Virus record (IMG/VR): IMGVR_UViG_3300050021_000090
Location: 1 to 51,584 of that record
DNA length: 51,584 nucleotides
Strand: one strand, 5' to 3'
From: a virus
How positions within the stretch are numbered: the first letter of the stretch is position 1; every line of letters starts with the position of its first letter. Position numbers and translations under genes: made by a program. The notes beneath the pieces were generated by a model. It searched no databases. It was not told the origin of the DNA and saw only the letters and a program-made list of their open reading frames with translations. Shown piece after piece: positions 1 through 51,286 of this stretch.

Positions 1-134
1 ATTCGGCACGGTATGAAGGTGAGCGAATGGCAAAGATCGAAGTTGAAGATGTGCTGAAGTATTGCAAAAGTCAGATACTGCGAGAGGAGGTCGAACGAGA
101 CAAGCGGGATAAGCGACCGTTCGCCGCATCAAGG
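1..134. repeat. Terminal direct repeat (copy 1), circular overlap
   Basis: Bases 1-134 are the same as 51451-51584 except at position 115 (G here, A at 51565). The overlap cuts through a small gene in the middle of the head operon. This is what is expected when a circular or circularly permuted genome is written out linearly. The mismatch changes Arg to Gln in the 60-residue protein and points to strain variation or a sequencing error. Confidence 0.9.
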
Positions 135-1445: not shown

Positions 1446-2245
1446 CAATCACGGACACTGACAAGAGTGATTTACAAACCGCAATCAACAAGGAGAGTTT
1501 GTCGGATCTGTCAGCATATCACCGGCGCTTGCATCAATTTGCAGCGCAAGGCAATTTGATGACAGGTTTTACACAGGCCGATATGAATTGGCTTCACTCT
1601 CGAGTTGAAACGGCGATGTGTGCGTGGCACAAGAAGGACGACCCGCCGACTAAATGCGCCGATCCTTCTCCTCTAGAATGGAAAAAAGGATTCGGCGGAA
1701 CGGAGGCAAGTATGAGCGAACAAGAAACGAAAGTATATGAGGATAAGATCGCCGGACTCGAGGCGACGATCGCCGAACTTAAAGCAGGGCGCGTCCTGAG
1801 TGCGGCGAACGAAGGCGATCTTAGGGACGCAGTAGCGGCACACAACTCCGGCGTCAAATTGACGAACGGGGTATTGAACCAAGTGACAGGTACACCCGGA
1901 CCGGGCGGGCCGGGATCGAAACCAAATCAAGGCGACAATCCTGCGCCGAATCCCGACGCGGGAGATGCGACACCGGCATCAGGCACGAACGCGGCGTCGC
2001 CCGATGAAACAAAGGGCGAGATTGCTACTGTCCCCGCAGTAGTGACAGAGAACACGGAACCGATTGTCGTCGAGACTGATAAAGGGGAATCTGATGATGA
2101 CATTATAGTCGTCGATGAGGATGAGTTGCGGGCCGTTCTACAAGGCGAGGGCGGCGAAGTAAAAGACGAATCTGACGACGAGATTGTTGTTGTTGACGAG
2201 GACGAACTACGAGCAGTCCTTGAAGGCAACGGCGCGGAGGCATAA
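1442..2245 (+). CDS. Putative capsid scaffolding protein (267 aa)
   Basis: The protein is acidic. It has an N-terminal helical domain (1-90), a coiled-coil (about 91-125) containing the GRVLSAANE motif seen in scaffold-like extensions of prohead proteases, a Gly/Pro/Asp-rich linker, and a C-terminal near-duplicate of VVDEDELRAVL (two copies about 24 residues apart). Position between protease and capsid genes supports a scaffold role. A second start with a better SD lies inside at 1712, so two products are likely. The function is inferred from position and composition. Confidence 0.7.
   Translation: MTITDTDKSDLQTAINKESLSDLSAYHRRLHQFAAQGNLMTGFTQADMNWLHSRVETAMCAWHKKDDPPTKCADPSPLEWKKGFGGTEASMSEQETKVYEDKIAGLEATIAELKAGRVLSAANEGDLRDAVAAHNSGVKLTNGVLNQVTGTPGPGGPGSKPNQGDNPAPNPDAGDATPASGTNAASPDETKGEIATVPAVVTENTEPIVVETDKGESDDDIIVVDEDELRAVLQGEGGEVKDESDDEIVVVDEDELRAVLEGNGAEA
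1712..2245 (+). CDS. Nested in-frame scaffold product (internal start)
   Basis: Within the scaffold gene, GGAGG at 1702-1706 stands 5 bases before an in-frame ATG at 1712. This would give a 177-residue product consisting of the coiled-coil, linker and duplicated acidic tail without the N-terminal domain. The arrangement parallels lambda C/Nu3, where scaffold is made from an internal start. That comparison is inference; the SD and ATG are directly visible. Confidence 0.5.
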   Translation: MSEQETKVYEDKIAGLEATIAELKAGRVLSAANEGDLRDAVAAHNSGVKLTNGVLNQVTGTPGPGGPGSKPNQGDNPAPNPDAGDATPASGTNAASPDETKGEIATVPAVVTENTEPIVVETDKGESDDDIIVVDEDELRAVLQGEGGEVKDESDDEIVVVDEDELRAVLEGNGAEA

Positions 2246-2246
2246 C

Positions 2247-3500
2247 ATGGGCGAAATACGAATGACTCGTTCTCAGTTGAACGATCTCATGGGCAAAGAT
2301 GGGATCAAACGAGAGACGAAGTACACACGGCAACAGCTTCAAGATATGTTCTTGAAGCGAACTGGACAAACAAAAGACGAACTCAAGGGTCAAACCCATG
2401 AGGCAATTGACCGACAGAACCTTGCGATCCGCACGGCACTCGCAGGCGAGGAACAGTATGCGGAAGCAAACAAGTTTGAAAAGGTCGATCCACTTGGCGG
2501 ACTTATAATCGCATACGCGAACGCCAAGGGTAACGTCAGGGATGCTCACTTTTGGGCGCAGCGGAAGTTTGGTGACAAATCCAAGATCACCAAGGCGCTC
2601 GAGGTTGCCATTCCAACCGCAGGCGGCATGATGGTTCCCGAGATACTCTCGGACGAAGTGATTGAACTCTTGCTTGCCGCGACGGTCATGCGATCAATGG
2701 GATGCACGATCATGCCTCTTGTCAACGGACAACTGAGCATCACACGGCAAACCGGCGGCGCAACGGCAGCGTATCTCAGCGAAGGCGGGAACATCACCTA
2801 CTCGCAGCTACAAGTCGGACAGATTAACCTACAAGGTCACAAACTCGGAGCAATCACGGCGATCTCAACTGATCTCCTTGACTTCTCACAACCGAACGTT
2901 GACCAAATGGTTCGCAACGACATCGTAAAACAAATGGCATTGAGAGAAGATCTTGCATTCATCGAAGGTAACGGCGCACTCGCCACACCTGTCGGAATGC
3001 GGAATCAGATGACTGCGGCAAATGCAATCGCAATGACCGCAACTCCATCGGCAGTAACGGCAACAACCGACGCCGCGAGAATGGAGACAGTTCTCGACAA
3101 CGCCAACGTACCCAACACAAAGCGAGGTTGGATAATGCGGCCGTCAAACAAGAACTGGCTCGCACAAGTGAGGGAAGCAACAGGCATGCTCGCGTTCCCA
3201 ACAGTACAGGCGAACAACACATTTTGGGGACACCCAATCGCAACCACGACTCAACTGAGCATGGACGCACCGACAACGAACTACATCTATCTTGCCGAGT
3301 TCCCCGAGATGATTATCGGCGATGCCATGACGATGAGAATCGACGCTTCGACCGAGGCCGCTTACGATATGAGCGGAACCTTACTCTCGCCATTCAGCAG
3401 AGACGAGGCAGTTATTCGTGCGATTCAAATGCACGACTTCGGAATGCGACATCCCGCATCCGCCGCTGCATTAACCGGCGTGACATGGGGCAACGTCTAA
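2247..3500 (+). CDS. Major capsid protein, HK97 fold
   Basis: This 417-residue protein has a helical charged N-terminal region (about 1-105, typical of a cleavable delta domain), then the HK97-type core with GGMMVPEILSDEVIELL, TRQTGGATAAYLSEGG, and LREDLAFIEGNG. ATG 2247 is chosen over an in-frame upstream start because GGAGG (2237-2241) is correctly spaced and the earlier start would overlap the scaffold. It forms the icosahedral shell. The protease immediately upstream suggests that the N-terminal region is removed during maturation. Confidence 0.93.
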   Translation: MGEIRMTRSQLNDLMGKDGIKRETKYTRQQLQDMFLKRTGQTKDELKGQTHEAIDRQNLAIRTALAGEEQYAEANKFEKVDPLGGLIIAYANAKGNVRDAHFWAQRKFGDKSKITKALEVAIPTAGGMMVPEILSDEVIELLLAATVMRSMGCTIMPLVNGQLSITRQTGGATAAYLSEGGNITYSQLQVGQINLQGHKLGAITAISTDLLDFSQPNVDQMVRNDIVKQMALREDLAFIEGNGALATPVGMRNQMTAANAIAMTATPSAVTATTDAARMETVLDNANVPNTKRGWIMRPSNKNWLAQVREATGMLAFPTVQANNTFWGHPIATTTQLSMDAPTTNYIYLAEFPEMIIGDAMTMRIDASTEAAYDMSGTLLSPFSRDEAVIRAIQMHDFGMRHPASAAALTGVTWGNV

Positions 3501-31773: not shown

Positions 31774-31783
31774 ATATTTATAG
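31774..31783 (+). promoter_or_regulatory. Archaeal-type TATA box (leaderless transcript)
   Basis: ATATTTATAG is centred about 26 bases before the ATG at 31805. In archaea transcription begins at about this distance, so the message would begin at the start codon, which has no SD. The motif and spacing are visible; promoter activity is inferred. A TTGACC at 31756 with TTATAG could be read as a bacterial promoter, but it would give the same start region. Confidence 0.5.
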
Positions 31784-31804: not shown

Positions 31805-32200
31805 ATGGCAGATTCATTCGGCCTAAGACGGGGGGGGCAGTATGAGACGCAGATAGTCGCCATAGAACGCGAGATTAAAGAGCGCGTCGACGGCTGCATG
31901 CGTCCTCAGTGTTGGGTTCTCAAAGACGAGAAGGATATTGGAAAAATGTATCTCGGCAAAAAAGTCACGACTGACGGCAAAGGCCGATACGTCTATATCC
32001 GACGCTATCTCTTTTTGTTGACCTACGGTTTCCTTCCCGATAGACGCAGACTTGAGACGCTCTGCGGGAACAATCGTTGCGTCAATCCGGCTCATGTAAC
32101 GTACGCTCGGTTTAATAGGACGTATGAGCAGGTTAAGGAGTTGTTAAAGCGCAATTGGATAACTGAGGAACAAGTTGAGGAATTATATTCAGGAGGTTAA
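31805..32200 (+). CDS. HNH_3-like nuclease or DNA-binding protein
   Basis: The 131-residue protein has CGNNRCVNPAHVTYARFNRT, the second half of an HNH_3 motif (CxNxxCVNPxHL). The usual His before the first Cys is replaced (LETLC), so cleavage may be lost. It is basic, has no SD, and probably comes from a leaderless message. It is first in the regulatory block, so a regulator or homing-type nuclease are both possible. Confidence 0.55.
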   Translation: MADSFGLRRGGQYETQIVAIEREIKERVDGCMRPQCWVLKDEKDIGKMYLGKKVTTDGKGRYVYIRRYLFLLTYGFLPDRRRLETLCGNNRCVNPAHVTYARFNRTYEQVKELLKRNWITEEQVEELYSGG

Positions 32201-36085: not shown

Positions 36086-36111
36086 GCGGGGCAAACCCGC
36101 GCCTTTTTTTT
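36086..36111 (+). terminator. Hairpin plus T-tract terminator
   Basis: Stem GCGGG/CCCGC (36086-36090 with 36096-36100), loop GCAAA, then GCC and eight Ts. It closes the transcript that begins near 34180. Confidence 0.75.
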
Positions 36112-36309
36112 CGACAACTATAAGGCAAGGAACTTTAAATTTATAGCCGTCGGAGGTGAGACGACGAATCTATATACCCGAGAACTATCAAACAGCTCTC
36201 TGTCAGGGCGACAAGGTTTTACAAGGTTCCTTCATGACCTATCCCCTCCTTTGTCGTCCTTCTCACCTCCTTACTTTGACATAATTTTCTAACAACCGGA
36301 GGGTACCAA
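36112..36309 (+). other. Structured leader or small RNA before 36310 gene
   Basis: TATA-like TTTAAATTTATAG (36134-36146) is followed by GGAGGTGAG (36151-36159). Its complement CTCACCTCC lies at 36261-36269, with ACGAC/GTCGT pairing inside that, and AAGGAAC (36126) complements GTTCCTT (36226). The region could fold into a long hairpin of about 120 bases. It contains TCACCTCCTTA, the anti-SD-like element. The gene at 36310 has its own SD (CCGGAGG). It may be a leader with regulation or an RNA gene. Confidence 0.45.
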
Positions 36310-37894: not shown

Positions 37895-38413
37895 ATGCCG
37901 TATAACCATCGCGGGCCTGATCCGAAACTGAATGACCGACGTCTCGAGTTCTATACACGATATACTCAAGGCGAGAAGGTATGCAACATCGTCCGGGCGC
38001 TCTCGGGCAAGTATCACGTCGCCGAAGCTACGTTAAGAACCGATTGGAATAAGCGTGACAATTGGGGGCTCATTCTCCGCGAACCTATCGAGGAATTTAT
38101 CGTTCAAGACTACCTCCAAGAGGTCGCGGAGGTCATCGAGAACTTATGGCATATAGCACTCACGGCCCCGATGCCTGCCGATAGGATCTCAGCGTTTAAA
38201 GCGATCGCGGACATCATGTTCCGCCGGTTCGATAACAATCAAAAGCTTGGAAGGATCCATAAAGAACCAATGCGGATCGAGATCGAACAAGACATTGACA
38301 AGCTACACAACGCAGTCGTCAGAGTCGCAGGCGGTAACATCGAAGCGGAGAAGGATCTCGTCAGGCTTTTAATGGAGATGCAGCATGGCGTCGAGGGCAA
38401 TTCCGAGAACTGA
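37895..38413 (+). CDS. Terminase small subunit
   Basis: The 172-residue protein has an N-terminal helix-turn-helix-like region (LNDRRLEFYTRYTQGEKV ... YHVAEATLRTDWNKRDNWG) and a helical C-terminal part. It directly precedes the terminase ATPase gene and overlaps it by 29 bases. It would bind the packaging site and load the motor. Identity rests on fold and position. Confidence 0.75.
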   Translation: MPYNHRGPDPKLNDRRLEFYTRYTQGEKVCNIVRALSGKYHVAEATLRTDWNKRDNWGLILREPIEEFIVQDYLQEVAEVIENLWHIALTAPMPADRISAFKAIADIMFRRFDNNQKLGRIHKEPMRIEIEQDIDKLHNAVVRVAGGNIEAEKDLVRLLMEMQHGVEGNSEN

Positions 38414-39197
38414 GAACCCGCTCGAGTCGGATCTGCTCGCATTGATGTTCTATCCGTCAATGTTCGCCGAGGCGCTCTTTGGAGCTCCGCCTGATCCGTG
38501 GCAAACCGAAGTCCTCGAGACGAAGTCAAAGCGAATCCTCCTCAACTGCGCGAGACAAACCGGCAAGTCCTCGATTGTGGCGGCGATGGCGCTCCACCAT
38601 GCGCTGTGGACTCCGAAGTCAATGGTCATCGTCATATCGCACACGCTCGAGCAAGCGAAAGAAACCTTCCGAAAGATCACCGATTACTATAAGCAGATCG
38701 ACCGGCCGGTTCTATCAGTCACGGAGACCGTGCAAAAGATCGAACTCGCCAACAAGTCACGGATCATCGCACTCACCGGGCAAGCGCCTGACTCAATCCG
38801 AGGCTACTCCAACGTCACGCTCCTCGTCATTGACGAGGCTTCGCAAGTGCATGAGAAAGCATACACGAACTCCCGACCGATGCTCGCTATAAGCAACGGT
38901 AAGATCGTCCTCCTCAGCACACCACACGGCAAGCGAGGCTTTTTTTGGGAAGCGTGGGACAACGAGGAGAACTGGCTTAAAGTCAGGATCACCGCCGATG
39001 ATTGTCCGCGGTTCACTCGATCGTTCCTCGAGGAGGAGCGAGAACGAATGCTTGATTGGGAGTTTAAGCAAGAATATTATTGTTACTTTGCCGAGGCGAT
39101 CGACAGCGTATTTAAACCGGAGGACATCGAAGCGGCATTCGATCATCCCGAACTACCTGTAAGGAATGAGATAGATCTGAGTCTTGACGATTTATAA
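38385..39197 (+). CDS. Terminase large subunit, ATPase half
   Basis: The 270-residue protein carries Walker A CARQTGKSS (about 55-63), Walker B LLVIDEAS (Asp150, Glu151) and coupling motif LLSTPHGKRG (about 176-185). It stops after EQ-rich helices and FKPEDIEAAFDHPELP. The nuclease half is in the next gene in the same frame, separated by one TAA and an SD. Together they equal one ordinary large subunit. This ATPase drives DNA translocation into the prohead. Confidence 0.9.
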   Translation: MASRAIPRTENPLESDLLALMFYPSMFAEALFGAPPDPWQTEVLETKSKRILLNCARQTGKSSIVAAMALHHALWTPKSMVIVISHTLEQAKETFRKITDYYKQIDRPVLSVTETVQKIELANKSRIIALTGQAPDSIRGYSNVTLLVIDEASQVHEKAYTNSRPMLAISNGKIVLLSTPHGKRGFFWEAWDNEENWLKVRITADDCPRFTRSFLEEERERMLDWEFKQEYYCYFAEAIDSVFKPEDIEAAFDHPELPVRNEIDLSLDDL

Positions 39198-39209: not shown

Positions 39210-39989
39210 ATGCCAGTTCGTAACATGGGGGCCGCGTGGATGCCCGGGGATGGTTCACTTTCACAGTTCATAGAGGAACACGAATACTCACCACGTCGAG
39301 CACTTCGCAAACAGCGGGAGAAAGAGGAATCGAACACATGGCGCACGACGCAATGGGGCAACTATAACAAGTCACTATATATCGGCCTTGACCCGGGCAA
39401 GAAGTCGGACTATTCCGCTCTTATATTCTTGGAGCCATTCTTGCCAATTGACCCCGAACAGCACCAAGGCAAGTTTGTCTACCACTTATCGCGCATTCAA
39501 CGCTTACCGCTCGAGACGCCATATCCAAAGATTGCGAGGCTCCTCCGCAAAGCCTACAATCAGGCGAAGGCAAATCCCGATTGGGACTTTATCTATATCG
39601 CAATTGATGAGGGCGGAGTTGGCACGGCAGTCGCGGATCAGATCGTCGAACTGATCCCAAATGCGGACATAACTCGCGTGACGCTGACAGGCGGTTTGCG
39701 CCCGAGGTGGAATGACGCACGGAATGTATCACTCCCGAAGCCGCAGCTCGCATCAACACTGATCGCACTGTTTGAATCGCGGCGCATTTGGGTCGCGCAT
39801 GAGGACAAGAAACAACTTGAGGAACTCAAAGAGGAATTGGAGACGTATCAAATGAAGATAAACACACAGGGACACGACTTATACGGCGCATTAAAGATCG
39901 GGGCGCACGACGACATCGCATCGGCAATCGGAATCGCCGCTTGGCTTGCAGAGGATAGCAACGGCGGCAGTGTGCCGCTCTTTTGGTGA
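39210..39989 (+). CDS. Terminase large subunit, nuclease half
   Basis: The 259-residue protein has an RNase H-like fold: YIGLDPGKKSDYS (Asp61), IAIDEGGVG (Asp133) and HDDIASAIGIAAW (Asp234/235). The ATG at 39210 is preceded by GGGGGAAAAAAG, so it can be translated on its own. The first 55 residues are a linker (MPVRNMGAAWMPGDG ...). It cuts the concatemer during packaging. In most viruses this domain is fused to the ATPase. Confidence 0.88.
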   Translation: MPVRNMGAAWMPGDGSLSQFIEEHEYSPRRALRKQREKEESNTWRTTQWGNYNKSLYIGLDPGKKSDYSALIFLEPFLPIDPEQHQGKFVYHLSRIQRLPLETPYPKIARLLRKAYNQAKANPDWDFIYIAIDEGGVGTAVADQIVELIPNADITRVTLTGGLRPRWNDARNVSLPKPQLASTLIALFESRRIWVAHEDKKQLEELKEELETYQMKINTQGHDLYGALKIGAHDDIASAIGIAAWLAEDSNGGSVPLFW

Positions 39990-41491: not shown

Positions 41492-41716
41492 ATGGACGAA
41501 AGAGTAATTGAAGGACATTCAGATAGCAAAGCAGAGTTTAAGCGACAGTTTGGACGGAACCCGCCCGAAGGGTGTACACGATGCCACACGCCGTTAAGTG
41601 AATGCAAGGGACTGACCGATTCACAGATGGATGGCGTTCACCAATTCGAGGGTAAAGAATGGCTATGTGACAGTTGCCTGCAAAAGCAGGGACGACGCGA
41701 GGCGGGATTGGATTAA
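41492..41716 (+). CDS. Zinc-ribbon-like small protein (74 aa)
   Basis: CTRCHTPLSEC and later LCDSCLQKQG give a Cys4 ribbon with DNA-binding potential. ATG 41492 follows GTGAGGTAAAA. First gene of the accessory block after the MuF gene. Confidence 0.6.
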   Translation: MDERVIEGHSDSKAEFKRQFGRNPPEGCTRCHTPLSECKGLTDSQMDGVHQFEGKEWLCDSCLQKQGRREAGLD

Positions 41717-41720
41717 ATAT

Positions 41721-42215
41721 ATGGCAGGGTATAGCCCGTTTGAAAGCAGGATCGTCAGATTAATCAATGACGATTTTTTCTCTGCAACAGGACAACCGGG
41801 CCTTGCCTTCCGTCTTAAACAAAGCCGTTGGAATACTCAGCTTATCGACGTCCTTGTCGACTCAGGCAGTCGGGCGCACTACCTCGCCATCGAGTGCAAG
41901 TCGATCGATCCAAAAAAGACAAGGAAATTCTACTTCTCGGCTTGGGATCGCAAAGGACGTCACCAAGTCGAGACAATCTCCGAGTTTGTCGACAAGTCAC
42001 AAAGGTTCGGGATCATGGCCGCGGAGATCCGACAAGGTCGAGGCCCGATCCCAAATCAAATTTTTCTCATACCGTGGCAACACGTCGATGACGCGTATCA
42101 GGGCGGCAAGGTCGGAATTGATCCGAACGATCTGCCGGACAAGTATCCACAACTAAAGAAGATCAAAGGAACGCTAAACCTTGAAAGTTGCTTATCATTA
42201 TTGCGTCAGTTCTGA
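41721..42215 (+). CDS. PD-(D/E)XK nuclease, Hjc-like resolvase candidate
   Basis: This 164-residue protein has the PD-(D/E)XK pattern: NTQLIDVLVDSGSRAHYLAIECKSID has the Asp, the Glu-x-Lys pair and spacing of archaeal Holliday-junction resolvases. An N-terminal Glu (FESRIVR) may complete the site. It could resolve concatemers or branches before packaging. ATG 41721 is preferred over an upstream in-frame start, which lies in another gene. Confidence 0.7.
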   Translation: MAGYSPFESRIVRLINDDFFSATGQPGLAFRLKQSRWNTQLIDVLVDSGSRAHYLAIECKSIDPKKTRKFYFSAWDRKGRHQVETISEFVDKSQRFGIMAAEIRQGRGPIPNQIFLIPWQHVDDAYQGGKVGIDPNDLPDKYPQLKKIKGTLNLESCLSLLRQF

Positions 42216-43607: not shown

Positions 43608-44017
43608 CCTCATCCACCGAGATTTTAAAGGCGATGAGTGATGGCTTGACCGAAGCCGCTGACAAGATTCTCGCCGAGACGAACCTCATGATCGACGACA
43701 CATACGAGGCGCAGGGGATCAAGGACATCGTCGACACTGCCGAGGCGATGGCGTTCGTCGATGCCGCACTCGAGAAGGACATGGACACCAACAAAGCGAA
43801 ATACACAAGCGAAAAGGCGCGGGATATGGCAACCGCCTTCAATCTCTCTCAAAGCGACCTTTATATGCAGCGCAGGCTCGAGCATCGGGCAAAGATGGCG
43901 CTGGTCGAGAAACGCAAAGCGACGATCCTACGACTCCACGAACAACGCCGTGACTTGATGGCATACATTGAGTTCGCCAAGATATGCGGCGTCAGTTTTG
44001 CGGAGGGCTGTCCATGA
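43592..44017 (+). CDS. Helical hypothetical protein (141 aa)
   Basis: GGAGGG precedes ATG 43592. It is nearly all helix, with EAADKILAETNLMIDDTYEAQ and a basic coiled stretch HRAKMALVEKRKATILRLHE. It may dimerise. Coupled to the next zinc-ribbon gene by ATGA. Confidence 0.6.
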   Translation: MDESMTSSTEILKAMSDGLTEAADKILAETNLMIDDTYEAQGIKDIVDTAEAMAFVDAALEKDMDTNKAKYTSEKARDMATAFNLSQSDLYMQRRLEHRAKMALVEKRKATILRLHEQRRDLMAYIEFAKICGVSFAEGCP

Positions 44018-44157
44018 GCGATGATACGCCGTGTTGTCGACGATGCAAACACCCATTGAACTCAAGAGAACAGAACAACGGCATTTGTCAGCGTTGTGCG
44101 GATGACATCATGGCAAACGATAAGACGTCATGGACGCAAGCAAGTCTCGAATGTTAA
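44014..44157 (+). CDS. Zinc-ribbon miniprotein (47 aa)
   Basis: CCRRCKHPLN and ICQRCADD form two CxxC pairs. A similar ribbon occurs at 49414-49545. Just upstream of the histone-like gene. Probably nucleic-acid binding. Confidence 0.6.
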   Translation: MSDDTPCCRRCKHPLNSREQNNGICQRCADDIMANDKTSWTQASLEC

Positions 44158-44178
44158 AGGAGGTGACAACAAAACAAC

Positions 44179-44364
44179 ATGATAAGTGAAGCAGCATTCG
44201 ATAAAGCCTGCAAAGCCGCAGGCGCAAAGCAGGTCAGCGAAGCAGCACTCAACGAATTCGACGCGGTGATGACTGCCAAGATGAACGCAATCGCAACCGC
44301 CGCAGTCGCATCAATGACCGCAGCGAAGCGTGTTCGTATAGAACCGGCCGACATAACGGCATAA
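44179..44364 (+). CDS. Archaeal histone-fold protein (61 aa)
   Basis: The protein aligns along nearly its whole length with archaeal histones such as HMfB. Helix 1 ends KACKAAG, loop 1 is AKQVS (AERVS in HMfB), helix 2 is the long Ala-rich stretch from about 21 to 49, loop 2 is KRVRIEPADI (GRKTIKAEDI). Arg51 and Asp58 keep the Arg-Asp clamp at the same spacing. Helix 3 is cut short after Thr-Ala, and the usual loop Thr is Arg. SD GGAGGTG lies about 13 bases upstream of the ATG at 44179. It could coat or bend viral or host DNA. A terminator follows at once. Confidence 0.75.
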   Translation: MISEAAFDKACKAAGAKQVSEAALNEFDAVMTAKMNAIATAAVASMTAAKRVRIEPADITA

Positions 44365-44393
44365 GAGGGACAATAAAAGTCCCTCTTTTTTTT
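44364..44393 (+). terminator. Hairpin plus T-tract terminator after histone gene
   Basis: Eight-base-pair stem AGAGGGAC/GTCCCTCT (44364-44371 with 44379-44386), loop AATAAAA, then eight Ts. It overlaps the histone-like stop. It resembles the terminator at 4060. Confidence 0.8.
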
Positions 44394-44405
44394 ATTGGAG
44401 AAAAT

Positions 44406-44597: not shown

Positions 44598-44900
44598 ATG
44601 AGTCTTGAGGACGAGATAAACACCGAAGCATGGGCGCTTAAACAAACAGCCCGGCAACTCGCAAGAACGATTGAGGACATGGAATATCACGACCGTGACC
44701 GCGAGAGAAGGATGTTAAAAATCATCGCGGAACGACTCGAGAATCAGGCCGATCGATTGTCTCGAGTCAACGAACAACCTGATAAGGTCGAAACCTGCAA
44801 ATGCAACAGTTCGCAGTATAATGTAACGCCTGGGACTCTTAAAGAGAAGTGGCCGCCCGGAGCGTATGAACGAATATACGGAGGAAAAGATGACCGTTGA
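44598..44900 (+). CDS. Coiled-coil protein with CxC pair (100 aa)
   Basis: GGGAG precedes ATG 44598. Long helix (EAWALKQTARQLARTIEDM ... ERLENQADRL) followed by ETCKCNSSQ. Its 3' end contains the SD for the peptidase gene. Function unknown. Confidence 0.55.
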   Translation: MSLEDEINTEAWALKQTARQLARTIEDMEYHDRDRERRMLKIIAERLENQADRLSRVNEQPDKVETCKCNSSQYNVTPGTLKEKWPPGAYERIYGGKDDR

Positions 44901-45789
44901 AAGAAAGTTTGGATGGTTTCCGTCGATGCCTGATATGCGGAACAAGATATTCCCATCGCTTGCGCCGACAATTGATCCGACGAAACCGATCGACATAAGC
45001 GCAGGCGATTCTCCCGTTTATAATCAAAACGGATTCGGCGAATGTACAGGCATGGCGTGCAAGTCAGCCTTCGAGTATTGGCAGAAAAAGAACTTCGCAG
45101 GCAAATACACCGACGTCAGTGCGATGTTCATCTACAAAATGGCGCGGGATCTGTTAGGGTTACATGGCGACAGTGGCGCAACATTGAAAGCCGTGACGAT
45201 GGCCGCGAATAAATATGGCTGTCCTCCGACGACTTCGTGGCCGAACACTGCAAAGAACCTCAACAAAGAACCGACAGCGGCAGTTAAAGCGACTGCCAAG
45301 TTGACCGAGGCGATTGGCTACTACAATATCGACGTACCCGGCAAATCGCTCAATCAGATATTCCTCGACAGTCTTGGCGCATTCAGCGTCGCCGGACTGC
45401 CATTTATCGCAGGCGTTCCGGTTTACGCGTCATACGACCAAGGTGAAAAGACAGGTTGGTTCCCGTATCCGGTTAAAGGCGAGGCAATTGTCGGCGGACA
45501 CGCACTCGAATATTGTGCATGGCTTCCTGACTTAGTCATCACCAACGAAAGCGATGGATCAACAACGACAGGCGCATACAAGTTCAAAAATTCGTGGGAC
45601 ACAACATGGGGCGATCACGGATACGGCTATTTACCCAAGAAATACGCCGACATGGGATTATTGACGGATTATTGGGTTATAACGCTCGAGTCACATATCG
45701 CCAAGATGATCGGAAGGATCGCAACCGTCAACGGCGGAACATTAGAACCAATAAACCCGTCAGTGATGGTCGAAAACAACACGGGATAA
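44890..45789 (+). CDS. Papain-like cysteine peptidase (C1A family)
   Basis: The protein has 299 residues from ATG 44890, which has CGGAGG upstream (the ATG at 44866 lacks one). PVYNQNGFGECTGMACKSAF holds the oxyanion Gln46 and catalytic Cys52 at the papain spacing. GGHALEY gives His204, and KFKNSWDTTWGDHGYGY gives Asn234. No signal peptide or propeptide is visible. It could cut cell-surface protein (S-layer) for entry or release, or process virion proteins. The reading as a peptidase is strong; the target is inference. Confidence 0.88.
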   Translation: MTVERKFGWFPSMPDMRNKIFPSLAPTIDPTKPIDISAGDSPVYNQNGFGECTGMACKSAFEYWQKKNFAGKYTDVSAMFIYKMARDLLGLHGDSGATLKAVTMAANKYGCPPTTSWPNTAKNLNKEPTAAVKATAKLTEAIGYYNIDVPGKSLNQIFLDSLGAFSVAGLPFIAGVPVYASYDQGEKTGWFPYPVKGEAIVGGHALEYCAWLPDLVITNESDGSTTTGAYKFKNSWDTTWGDHGYGYLPKKYADMGLLTDYWVITLESHIAKMIGRIATVNGGTLEPINPSVMVENNTG

Positions 45790-47463: not shown

Positions 47464-47464
47464 G
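47419..47464 (+). repeat. Direct repeat A (copy 1)
   Basis: The first 35 bases, from ATGACATAC onward, match 48673-48707 exactly; over 46 bases there are two changes. Copy 2 is the end of a broken gene. Confidence 0.85.
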
Positions 47465-47564
47465 ACTTAAACAGATTGTATTTGATACGAAGGTCGTGAT
47501 CTTTATGGAGGTTGCGATCTTAATCATGACGTTCTTGCGAATCGAACGCAGGTTAAGATCGTGA
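47460..47564 (+). CDS. 34-residue membrane peptide
   Basis: ATG 47460 overlaps the previous stop. MRLKQIVFDTKVVIFMEVAI and LIMTFL form one hydrophobic helix with a basic C-terminus (RIERRLRS). Overlaps the next GTG. Confidence 0.4.
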   Translation: MRLKQIVFDTKVVIFMEVAILIMTFLRIERRLRS

Positions 47565-47803
47565 CATTAACCGAACAGGATAAAGACACACTGTTCGCGG
47601 TCTTAGGGCCGACGATGTATAGTTTCGTTGAATCAATTGAGATGACATACAAACCAATGACCGCGACGATCGAGTGTCCGTGTGGCAAACAGTTCGAACA
47701 TGAGTTCCTCGCTGGAATCGCTGAGAAGATTAACACAACCCGAGAATCCGAAAAACAAAAGACCGGGGTTTTGAGTAAACCTGTGGACAAAGAGGACAAT
47801 TAA
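47561..47803 (+). CDS. Hypothetical protein with CxC motif (80 aa)
   Basis: GTG 47561. An N-terminal helix (EQDKDTLFAVLGPTMYSF) is followed by MTATIECPCGKQFEHEF and a charged tail. Residues from MTYKPMTATI are identical in the gene at 49076. Confidence 0.5.
   Translation: MTLTEQDKDTLFAVLGPTMYSFVESIEMTYKPMTATIECPCGKQFEHEFLAGIAEKINTTRESEKQKTGVLSKPVDKEDN
47641..47708 (+). repeat. Direct repeat B (copy 1), 68 bp perfect
   Basis: Identical to 49075-49142. It encodes MTYKPMTATIECPCG and following residues in both copies; here it is the middle of a gene, there the start. Confidence 0.9.
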
Positions 47804-47831
47804 CCTTGTAAAAAAGTTATGATGTGAACAA

Positions 47832-47960
47832 ATGACCAAGGAGCACGTAATTAGATTTTTAGAACGGATGATAGTCGAAGGAACTGGTGGCGATTACTCT
47901 AAGCAAGAGATGCAAGAAAAAATAGACCTACTGAAAAAAGAGATGAAGGGTGAAAAATGA
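47832..47960 (+). CDS. Helical miniprotein (42 aa)
   Basis: MTKEHVIRFLERMIVEGTGG then SKQEMQEKIDLLKKEMKG. It has only a weak SD. Couples to the next gene by ATGA. Confidence 0.4.
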   Translation: MTKEHVIRFLERMIVEGTGGDYSKQEMQEKIDLLKKEMKGEK

Positions 47961-48118
47961 TTATAAAAGAAATTGACGACCTTAAAATAAGTATTGCCAA
48001 ACTTGAAACTGAGGTTAAAGAAGGGCGCGTTCTGAGTTGGCGAAACGAGGCCGACGTATCATCGGCGCGTTGTCTCGTTGATTTAGTTCTGCACGACCAA
48101 AAGAAGGAAGAAAAATGA
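47957..48118 (+). CDS. Coiled-coil miniprotein with GRVLSWRNE motif (53 aa)
   Basis: IIKEIDDLKISIAKLETEV is a short coiled-coil, followed by KEGRVLSWRNEADVSSA. The GRVLSxxNE motif also occurs in the scaffold protein at 1442, so the two may share an evolutionary piece. Function unknown. Confidence 0.45.
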   Translation: MIIKEIDDLKISIAKLETEVKEGRVLSWRNEADVSSARCLVDLVLHDQKKEEK

Positions 48119-48129
48119 GGGTTTGAAAA

Positions 48130-48258
48130 ATGACTTGTAAACATTTTCGAGTCGTTGAAGTGGAGAATAATAGGGGTTTTTATCTTTGCGTCCTTTTTAA
48201 ACTCCGCGTAACGAAAGAATTTTGCGGGGTAGGGTGTAAAAAGGAAGAAGAAAAATGA
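48130..48258 (+). CDS. Cys-containing miniprotein (42 aa)
   Basis: MTCKHFRVVEVENNRGFYLC, then FCGVGCKKEEE. Cys/His ligands for one zinc are possible. Its ends (GAAGAAAAATGAGG, GTGAAAAATG) repeat those of the gene before, a sign of tandem duplication. Confidence 0.45.
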   Translation: MTCKHFRVVEVENNRGFYLCVLFKLRVTKEFCGVGCKKEEEK

Positions 48259-48268
48259 GGTGTGAAAA

Positions 48269-48583
48269 ATGGCATCAGACGAATGGCGGAAATTTTTAGC
48301 AGAGAATTTCAAAGACGAAGGAGACGTTGCCTTAAATTTAGAAGAGCTTACGGTAGAGCAAATTCATGGTTTCTTAGGCATCGCAGAACGCAGGCTATTA
48401 GCATACACCGCAGAACAAGGCCACAAGGGAATGATGACACGCATTGTTATGTGGAAGTTAGACGAAATTCGCCGTCAACTTAAATACGCTCGCAATTCGC
48501 TAGGGACGGTTATAGGCTTTGAAACGTGGCTTACTAATGTGATAGAAAGCGCAAGGAAAGGAGAAAGAGATATAACTGAGTGA
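48269..48583 (+). CDS. Helical hypothetical protein (104 aa)
   Basis: GAGGTGTG precedes ATG 48269. LNLEELTVEQIHGFLGIAER and MTRIVMWKLDEIRRQLKYA are helical. Possibly nucleic-acid binding. No family. Confidence 0.55.
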   Translation: MASDEWRKFLAENFKDEGDVALNLEELTVEQIHGFLGIAERRLLAYTAEQGHKGMMTRIVMWKLDEIRRQLKYARNSLGTVIGFETWLTNVIESARKGERDITE

Positions 48584-48650
48584 GGTATACTTAATTCAGC
48601 GAATTGAGTTAGGGCATTTCTCGATTCGTGAGGATGGGAGCATAAGGGAT

Positions 48651-48673
48651 AAGACCATTTTTTCACCTCCTTA
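48651..48673 (+). repeat. Intergenic repeat with anti-SD-like end (copy 1)
   Basis: AAGACCATTTTTTCACCTCCTTA recurs at 49617-49639; the 11 bases TCACCTCCTTA also occur at 36260. The upstream part (GGGAGCATAAGGGAT) loosely matches GGAAGCATATAAAAGAGTT in the other copy. Confidence 0.8.
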
Positions 48674-48717
48674 TGACATACGCTGCATTCAAAGGGCAAA
48701 CGGTGATTGGAGAATGA
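48673..48717 (+). pseudogene. Fragment of RHH-like gene (duplicate tail)
   Basis: Reads MTYAAFKGQTVIGE, the last 14 residues of the protein at 47287-47463. It has no SD and no N-terminal part. It joins directly to the repeat element at 48651, marking a recombination junction. Confidence 0.65.
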
Positions 48718-48848
48718 GCGAACTAAGTTTAAGAACGTGTCTTGCGATTGATCTGTATCCGGGAATAACGTGCGCTGAATGTTTGAAGGATCATAACGGT
48801 TGCAGATACAAGCGGGAGGAACGTATGATGCAAGAGAGGCACGAATGA
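48714..48848 (+). CDS. Cys-rich miniprotein (44 aa)
   Basis: TTGGAGA precedes ATG 48714. LRTCLAIDLYPGITCAECLK then NGCRYKREER holds four Cys. Overlaps the next start. Zinc binding is likely. Confidence 0.5.
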   Translation: MSELSLRTCLAIDLYPGITCAECLKDHNGCRYKREERMMQERHE

Positions 48849-49072
48849 ACACATCGATCGCTTGCAGGAAGCAAACACATGCACAGTTCAATTATCTCCG
48901 TCACAAAATGGCGATCCATCGTGCGAAGTATATGACGCAAGACGAGTTGCTTTGTTTGTTGCTTGACAACTTCGATTATTGTGTATTGGAGAACGAGATC
49001 GACGTTGACTCAACTGTGGATCAGATCGTTCCGCATAAGGTGGACACAAGGGATGATTCATTGATATGGTGA
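48845..49072 (+). CDS. RHH-like protein (75 aa)
   Basis: AGAGG precedes ATG 48845, which overlaps the previous stop. HAQFNYLRHKMAIHRAKYMT then QDELLCLLLDNFDYCVLE is helical. A regulator is possible. Confidence 0.45.
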   Translation: MNTSIACRKQTHAQFNYLRHKMAIHRAKYMTQDELLCLLLDNFDYCVLENEIDVDSTVDQIVPHKVDTRDDSLIW

Positions 49073-49074
49073 AC

Positions 49075-49142
49075 GATGACATACAAACCAATGACCGCGA
49101 CGATCGAGTGTCCGTGTGGCAAACAGTTCGAACATGAGTTCC
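49075..49142 (+). repeat. Direct repeat B (copy 2), 68 bp perfect
   Basis: Identical to 47641-47708; here the repeat supplies the start codon and first residues of a gene. Confidence 0.9.
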
Positions 49143-49789: not shown

Positions 49790-51286
49790 GTGCCTACGAC
49801 AAGCGAAGGATTATTAACCCGGGTTCGCAAGGCAGTCACAAGACAACCGACACCTGTTGGCGCAAGTGTGACAGGTGGATCAACAGCAAACTCTTTTATC
49901 ACACAGTATCTTGGGGCCGCACGACAATCGACCGGCGTCAAGCGCGGCATTCCGCAATTTCTCAATGCTTATAACACCTTACCGTGGTATCGTGCCGCAG
50001 TCGGCAAGATCTCACACTCAATCAGCGGCGTCGAATGGTTGGGATTGACCGAAGATCCTGAGACGGAGCAAATGGTTCCTCTCGAGGACATACTCGAAGG
50101 ACAGAAACATCCGATCGAGATCTTCTTATCGAAACCGAATCCATTTTTCAGTTGGCAAACGGTTATGTTCCTGTGGTCGGTTCACTTGCGGACAACTGGC
50201 GAAGCATTCGGCGTTTGGGATTCAACTCCCGAAGGAATGCAGATATGGCCGATCACTCCGAATGCGATCACCAAATTGCCAACACCTGCCGAACCTGCCT
50301 TTATGATCTCACTCCCAACAGGTCAGTTCCCGATCCCAATGGAGGAAGTCTTTTGGATGATCGATCCTGATCCTGTCGTTCCTTACTCAAGAGGATCCGG
50401 CGTTGCTCAATCTCTCGACGATGAACTATCAACGGATGATGAAGCGGCAAAGACTGTTCGCGCATTCTTTGAGAAACAAGCACGACCTGACATCTTAATC
50501 ACCGGCAAAGGATTGAATCCCGAAAAGACAAAGAAGATCGAGGAGGATTGGATCGAGAAACAATCAGGTTTTTGGAACGCATTTAAACCGCACTTCATGA
50601 GTGAAGCGGTCGAAGTCACCACGTTTCAACAGGACTTCCAAGCGATGCAGTTCATCCCGTTGCGGCAATATGAACGTGACACGATCATCCAAGTGTTCGG
50701 TATACCGCCTGAGATCATCGGCATATTGAGTAACAGTAACCGGGCGACGATCGAGGCCGCTGATCTGTTCTTCTCACGATACACATTAACACCAATCTTA
50801 AACCAAATGCGCGAGGCATTCCAAAAGCAACTCGTTCCTAAGTTCGATGATACCGGACTTATTGAGATCGACTTCGTCTCGCCGATTCAAGAGGATAAAG
50901 ACTACAAACTCGCCGTGATGACCGCCGCACCGTACGCATTCCTGATCGATGAAGTTCGAGCGGCGGCAGATGAGGAACCTTTACCTGACGAGATGGGTCA
51001 ACGGTTCCCGTTGGCGATGAACATCGATCTTAACCCACTTACACCCGAGGCGACGGTACCCGAACCAACACAACCAACGACAGAACCGTTGCCTGATCCG
51101 ACCGGACAAGATACGTCCGAGAATCCCGCAGTCACCGATGTCCCCGGCTCGAATGAACCAAACGTCCTGATGCCCGAAGCTGCTTCAATGTCCTCACAAC
51201 AAAACAAACGCAGAAAAGGCGGACGAAAGGTTCGCACGGGCCGGGGTTACGTCGTGACGTTGCGACAAAGACGGCGCTACAATTAG
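49790..51286 (+). CDS. Portal protein, HK97 type
   Basis: The 498-residue protein starts at GTG 49790. It shows AYNTLPWYRAAVGKISHSIS, FLSKPNPFFSWQTVMFLWSVHL, QDFQAMQFIPLRQYERDTI and VFGIPPEIIGILSNSNRATI, the normal order for phage portals. The C-terminal 90 residues are Pro/Thr-rich, then basic (KRRKGGRKVRTGRG). It forms the dodecameric ring for DNA entry and begins the head operon. Confidence 0.93.
   Translation: MPTTSEGLLTRVRKAVTRQPTPVGASVTGGSTANSFITQYLGAARQSTGVKRGIPQFLNAYNTLPWYRAAVGKISHSISGVEWLGLTEDPETEQMVPLEDILEGQKHPIEIFLSKPNPFFSWQTVMFLWSVHLRTTGEAFGVWDSTPEGMQIWPITPNAITKLPTPAEPAFMISLPTGQFPIPMEEVFWMIDPDPVVPYSRGSGVAQSLDDELSTDDEAAKTVRAFFEKQARPDILITGKGLNPEKTKKIEEDWIEKQSGFWNAFKPHFMSEAVEVTTFQQDFQAMQFIPLRQYERDTIIQVFGIPPEIIGILSNSNRATIEAADLFFSRYTLTPILNQMREAFQKQLVPKFDDTGLIEIDFVSPIQEDKDYKLAVMTAAPYAFLIDEVRAAADEEPLPDEMGQRFPLAMNIDLNPLTPEATVPEPTQPTTEPLPDPTGQDTSENPAVTDVPGSNEPNVLMPEAASMSSQQNKRRKGGRKVRTGRGYVVTLRQRRRYN

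Follow-up and report, generated by a model that had tools for sequence, protein, structure and literature searches.

Can a tailed virus carry a histone of archaeal type and, if so, what might such a protein do to the chromatin of its host? This question is raised by a short open reading frame in the viral record IMGVR_UViG_3300050021_000090, of which positions 1 to 51,584 were analyzed (51,584 nucleotides; this entire stretch is referred to here as the window). An earlier note, made from the sequence alone, had described a 61-residue protein with an archaeal histone plan. The ORF was located exactly where that note had placed it, and the AGAKQVS loop, the long Ala-rich helix, the RIEPADI stretch and the Arg51/Asp58 pair are all present. 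The coordinates of this gene, its signals and the other features discussed below are collected in Table 1.

Table 1. Positions of the histone gene, its surroundings and other features of the window.
Feature	Position	Strand	Details
HK97-type major capsid protein	2184..3500	+	marks viral genome
AT-rich TATA-like box	31774..31781	+	about 28-30 bases 5' of start codon of gene at 31805, which lacks a Shine-Dalgarno site
Terminase ATPase	38385..39197	+	host evidence
Putative Holliday-junction-resolvase-like protein	41631..42215	+	assigned by motif
Shine-Dalgarno site	about 44156..44166	+	AAAGGAGGTGA; strong; 5' of histone start
Swapped cassette (histone gene and terminator)	44160..44399	+	identity 100% to L001, about 45-77% to L004
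Viral histone gene	44179..44364 (stop included)	+	61 aa, MISEAAFDKACKAAGAKQVSEAALNEFDAVMTAKMNAIATAAVASMTAAKRVRIEPADITA
Segments of the 61-aa histone	residues 4-13; 14-20; 21-50; 56-58		helix 1; loop 1 (AGAKQVS); helix 2, followed by loop 2; rudimentary helix 3
Terminator 3' of histone	44363..44395	+	9-bp hairpin with T-run at 44363-44387; GAGGGAC-AATAAAA-GTCCCTC-T8
100-aa protein	44598..44900	+	no assigned function; between histone and peptidase
Papain-like (C1) peptidase gene	44866..45789	+	3' of histone
Portal protein	49790..51286	+	marks viral genome

Independent sequence, profile and structure tests agree that the protein has a histone fold and descends from archaeal histones, as the earlier note had proposed, and we consider it almost certain that it is a histone homologue. 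The NCBIfam model NF043032 (archaea_histone) was the top match for all three viral members tested (E-values: 1e-5, 2.2e-5 and 2.4e-5). For the window histone, this match covers residues 4-60 (E-value: 1e-5), with a score of 25.8 bits that lies below the curated cut-off of 50. PF00808 had no match anywhere in the window. When a profile of four viral sequences was compared to the PDB, the best six matches were archaeal histone chains; with five sequences, the top eight were all histones (best E-value: 3.6e-4). Profile-profile comparison with HMf-type histones gave an E-value of 8.5e-7 and a probability of 91.5%, so the histone match that had been expected of a profile search was found by this method as well as with NCBIfam. 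In six-frame searches of methanogen genomes with the viral profile, the best matches were the histones of those genomes, and a profile built from viral sequences only, when searched against 1,691 ORFs from the surroundings of 80 archaeal histone loci, found all 80 histones without any further ORF up to an E-value of 1. At most 10 of 3,000 shuffles attained the HMf-type alignment scores of the window histone. As a separate observation, contigs with methanogen-type histones (L022 and L047; JARKQC010000028.1 and JARKQC010000031.1) were found in a genome titled Bacteroidota bacterium, probably through contamination.

The AlphaFold model of the window histone (P0001; pLDDT 75, moderate confidence) has the predicted helix-long helix-helix arrangement, with the limits given in Table 1, and 30 of its 31 Foldseek matches were histone-fold chains. 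The homologue from L011, a different virus of approximately 67 kb, was modelled with a higher pLDDT (86.7): its helices span residues 4-13 and 21-48 and are followed by a three-residue helix 3. This model superposes on HHoB and HMfB (TM 0.88, 1.0 Å rmsd by Foldseek), and Bdellovibrio HBb is also among its matches. In a library of viral folds, the named leading matches were giant-virus histones.

From loop 1 through its end, the window histone aligns without gaps to HMfB, with residue numbers equal to those of HMfB minus one. Arg51 and Asp58 have the spacing of HMfB Arg52-Asp59, as had been claimed, and in both proteins the loop-1 Val likewise lies 32 positions before the clamp Arg. Residues retained from HMfB include Gly15, Ala16, Val19 and Ser20 of loop 1, Ala23, Ala39 and Ala42 of helix 2 and the Arg51-Asp58 clamp; the clamp (seven residues apart) and the loop-1 Gly and Val are invariant in an alignment of five viral sequences. 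The DNA-contact motifs, RV in loop 1 and RKT in loop 2, are not kept. HMfB Arg19 corresponds to Gln18 in the window histone and RKT to RVR (thus QV and RVR), while L011 has KV and RVT; at the position of Arg19, relatives have Lys or Gln. The DNA-contact changes noticed earlier are therefore genuine in the window histone (Gln18/Arg53) but are not fixed in the viral family, as L011 has Lys18/Thr53. The helix 3 that had been described as shortened is essentially absent: nothing remains of it beyond one turn, which amounts to three residues in the model. At the positions of L46, H49 and L62, which the literature gives as the dimer-dimer contact residues of HMfB, the window histone has S45, A48 and A61. 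Because helix 3 is missing and the DNA-contact residues vary, assembly through a canonical four-helix bundle is unlikely.

Among known systems, the archaeal nucleosomal histones (HMfA/HMfB, HTkA, HPhA and Asgard HHoB) provide the best sequence and fold matches, at about 25-34% identity. They share with the viral histone ungapped homology over loop 1, helix 2 and loop 2, the loop-1 Gly and Val, the R-D clamp and the length of helix 2. The viral proteins differ in that the loop-1 Arg is replaced by Gln, Lys or Thr, RKT is replaced by RVR or RVT, the dimer-dimer contact residues of HMfB are absent and helix 3 has about 3 residues in place of about 10. As its helix 3 has three residues rather than about 10, we file the protein as a histone homologue and not as a nucleosomal histone. 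The alpha3 histones (the face-to-face HTkC and the bacterial dimer Bd0055/HBb) are similar to it in being small stand-alone proteins with a rudimentary helix 3 and an R-D clamp. In these, however, helix 3 has 3-4 residues and helix 2 is shorter by 4-5 residues (PMC11390915), the spacing from loop 1 to the clamp is 28 (8fvx and 9f2c; Bd0055 and HTkC) compared to 32 in the viral histone, and there is an FtF Asn that the viral histone lacks, its loop-1 AGA being of nucleosomal type. The acidic miniature histones of cluster 4 (PMC13260811) are also short with a rudimentary helix 3, but they are haloarchaeal proteins of about 55 aa with a shortened helix 2 and without the loop-1 Gly. Giant-virus histones (Marseillevirus, Medusavirus and Pandoravirus) are virus-encoded histone folds as well, but they are of the eukaryotic H2A/H2B/H3/H4 type, are often doublets, belong to viruses of amoebae and represent an unrelated acquisition. 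The window histone thus fits no published class exactly, as it has the full nucleosomal helix-2 length yet a truncated helix 3; it joins a nucleosomal-type helix 2 to an alpha3-type helix-3 stub, without a C-terminal domain.

A search of related viral contigs, which the earlier note had suggested, yielded homologues in L001, L004, L011 and L012. UViG_3300036883_000007 (L001) encodes an identical histone, L004, L005, L009 and L010 encode a 58% identical histone at the corresponding position, and further versions (56% and 53%) are found in L011 and in L012, another virus of approximately 67 kb. The histone homologues in other viral contigs are about 51-59% identical and all are 61-62 aa in length; those of L004, L011 and L012 are preceded by the same Shine-Dalgarno site as in the window. 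The L011 virus also encodes, at another genomic location, a further paralogue that has diverged more (62 aa, L111:1501-1686, corresponding to G306:C1:20977-21162), adjoining small membrane-protein genes, so that two histones occur in one tailed virus; diverged paralogues of this type were identified in two more contigs (L116 and L117). Ka/Ks among the histone homologues is about 0.22-0.41 (Nei-Gojobori, with synonymous sites near saturation in diverged pairs), which indicates that the histone is a selected protein. The genes common to the L011 virus and the window include those for tail, peptidase, resolvase-like, HNH and histone proteins. In the L011 virus, the peptidase homologue likewise lies 3' of the histone, and a homologue of the 100-aa protein adjoins the peptidase gene. 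The C1 peptidase, used as a query in the genome scan, had no match.

The flanks of the cassette that contains the histone gene and its terminator are 90-100% identical to both L001 and L004, and the alleles of the gene just 5' of it (43680-43919) group in the opposite manner among the window, L001 and L004. The L004 terminator at the corresponding position has an unrelated stem (GACATCGGGG-AATAAT-CCCCGGTGTC). Fast divergence of the histone was replaced as an explanation by recombination, because the divergence begins and ends abruptly and the allele of L001 is identical. By these sequence comparisons, alternative histones move between close viruses by gene-scale mosaic recombination, a pattern of exchange that would fit a host-interaction gene tuned to variable partners. 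Elsewhere in the window, about 1.4 kb (47464-49084) is missing from L004, and direct repeats around 47647-47708 and from 49080 onwards suggest a duplication or insertion.

That the gene is virus-encoded is borne out by the near-identical ends of the window (133 of 134 bases), by a tailed-virus structural module with portal, capsid, terminase, tape measure and Dit-like tail proteins, and by the recurrence of the histone in other viral contigs. The terminase appears as two adjacent ORFs, the ATPase and a probable nuclease part (39210-39989), and the ATPase is a separate ORF in archaeal relatives too. An intergenic region of the window (36086-36309) has a hairpin resembling a terminator, together with a TTTAAATTTATAG box at a long distance 5' of the next gene, and may encode a small RNA. 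The related L011 virus encodes a Ku protein (L114:6287-7078, minus strand; PF02735, E-value: 2e-43), a component of DNA end joining that viruses seldom have, and a single 683-aa ORF (L115:758-2809) combines a uracil-DNA-glycosylase-superfamily match with a prohead-protease (S78_2) domain.

The histone had also been put forward as a hint of an archaeal host. This hint is insufficient by itself, as an argument from the histone alone would be circular, and the host was therefore assessed on other genes, which do support an archaeon. Three Halobacteriota genomes encode proteins that match the window terminase ATPase over its length at 62-64% identity, while its best match among 50,697 phage records reaches 41%. 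For the resolvase-like protein, a further Halobacteriota genome has a 44% identical counterpart. A replication-type ATPase of the L011 virus (L114:2162-3415, minus strand) matches 26 of 295 Halobacteriota genomes (best match 38% identity, E-value: 6e-69), compared to two weak matches among 198 genomes of a control phylum and none among the 50,697 phages that served as a negative control. In archaeal leaderless genes, a TATA box lies at a distance from the start codon like that found 5' of the gene at 31805; orthologues of this gene in L011, L012 and L117 also have no Shine-Dalgarno site and a TATA-like box at the same distance, although the numbers are small. It counts against such a host that capsid and tail proteins had no match in the 295 Halobacteriota genomes. 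Sigma-70 promoters were not enriched in the window (27 vs. 24.3 ± 5.2) and the shape of the Shine-Dalgarno motif does not discriminate between hosts. A CRISPR-spacer search of 20 kb of window DNA against 393 genomes gave, besides gene-level matches, only short matches of uncertain meaning. A bacterial host, suggested at first by phage-like capsid, portal and tail matches and by hairpin terminators, was dropped on the basis of the archaeal matches of the terminase, resolvase-like protein and ATPase and of the negative phage control. The archaeal contigs that match viral genes could themselves be viral contigs binned with an archaeon. Judged from gene similarity, the virus very likely infects an archaeon, and its host is probably a histone-bearing, methanogen-like member of the Halobacteriota. 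In each of the four genomes where the terminase or the ATPase has its nearest relatives, 2-3 full-length histones are encoded.

Our best explanation, to which we assign roughly even odds (a probability of about 0.5), is that this protein is a trimmed archaeal histone of a tailed archaeal virus that acts as a dimer-only binder or as a capstone limiting host hypernucleosomes. Through its conserved helix-2 core, the viral histone would pair in a handshake dimer with a second copy of itself and/or with host histones. A dimer containing it would be unable to pass the polymer on, and would either cap the chain or bind DNA purely as a dimer. Host hypernucleosomes would thereby be limited on viral or host DNA, which would favour viral transcription or packaging. 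With helix 3 and dimer-dimer contacts of HMfB type gone, chain growth is not expected. Both roles suggested in the earlier note, dominant partner and compaction protein, are compatible with the data, but this same loss favours the version in which the protein is a dominant partner or capstone. According to a study of HMfA and HMfB, histones without the dimer-dimer residues are expected to bind as dimers only, or to cap in heterodimers (PMC10151503). The full-length histones of the candidate host-lineage genomes could be heterodimer partners. With a net charge close to zero (-0.5) and with changes at several of the residues that contact DNA in HMfB, the window histone may bind DNA weakly; a charge this near to neutral speaks more for a protein that works through partners than for one that binds DNA strongly by itself. 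The capstone step by itself has at best an even chance and perhaps somewhat less. A stronger version, in which tailed archaeal viruses captured a host histone and stripped it of helix 3 to give a heterodimerizing poison subunit that ends hypernucleosome chains as an anti-chromatin weapon, is somewhat less likely than not.

The main rival, which we regard as rather unlikely, is that the protein is a stand-alone DNA organizer in the manner of Bdellovibrio HBb, here of the viral genome: its homodimers would bind viral DNA or bend it, within infected cells or inside the head, and host histones would not be involved. Also lacking a proper helix 3, HBb both binds DNA and bends it (PMC11317129), and virion DNA is packaged with viral histones in the Marseilleviridae (PMC11390915). 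The two paralogues of the L011 virus are also in keeping with such a role. The near-neutral charge argues against it, as does the location of the histone gene, which is near the peptidase gene and away from those for the capsid. Furthermore, tailed viruses use terminase to package DNA into preformed heads, and little space is left there for wrapped DNA.

A histone-fold regulator, either TAF/NF-Y-like or promoter-proximal, that acts at specific viral or host promoters is improbable. A Pfam search with the window histone gave two matches in all, both weak and both to histone-fold transcription families (TAF and Bromo_TP), but archaeal nucleosomal histones are what the viral profile matches best and the protein has no extra domain. 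Very unlikely is an alpha3 "phage histone" of a bacteriophage. The published phage histones come from tailed-virus metagenomes, carry a C-terminal helical tetramerization domain and lack RxTxxxxD (Schwab et al. 2024, PMC11390915). They resemble the window histone in their truncated helix 3 and their tailed prokaryotic viruses, and the best database matches of the capsid are bacterial phages, with hairpin terminators present; in contrast to them, the window histone stops at residue 61 directly after helix 3 and has a spacing of 32 rather than 28, which largely refutes this reading, while its L011 relative retains RxTxxxxD and the terminase and other genes point to archaea. Least probable of all is that a short, helical and Ala-rich protein, not a histone, has come to resemble one by convergence, since the modest single-sequence scores, under curated cut-offs, are set against the specific recovery of archaeal histones, the NCBIfam and PDB matches and the Foldseek superposition described above.

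Viral histones (the giant-virus class and one alpha3 "phage histone" class) and archaeal histones are already known. In the literature searched, of which the coverage is incomplete with many journals absent, no report was found of an archaeal virus that carries a histone of archaeal type, and neither this literature nor the viral fold library searched contained, for archaeal tailed viruses, a stand-alone histone of nucleosomal type from which helix 3 is deleted. With the trimmed histone described here, the virus may be able to disturb or remodel the packaging of host DNA. As a minimal histone that has the dimer core without the polymerization surface, it would be a natural tool for studying the role of archaeal hypernucleosomes during infection. 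It would bear both on the origin of viral histones by capture from the host and on whether viruses of archaea, like those of eukaryotes, combat chromatin.
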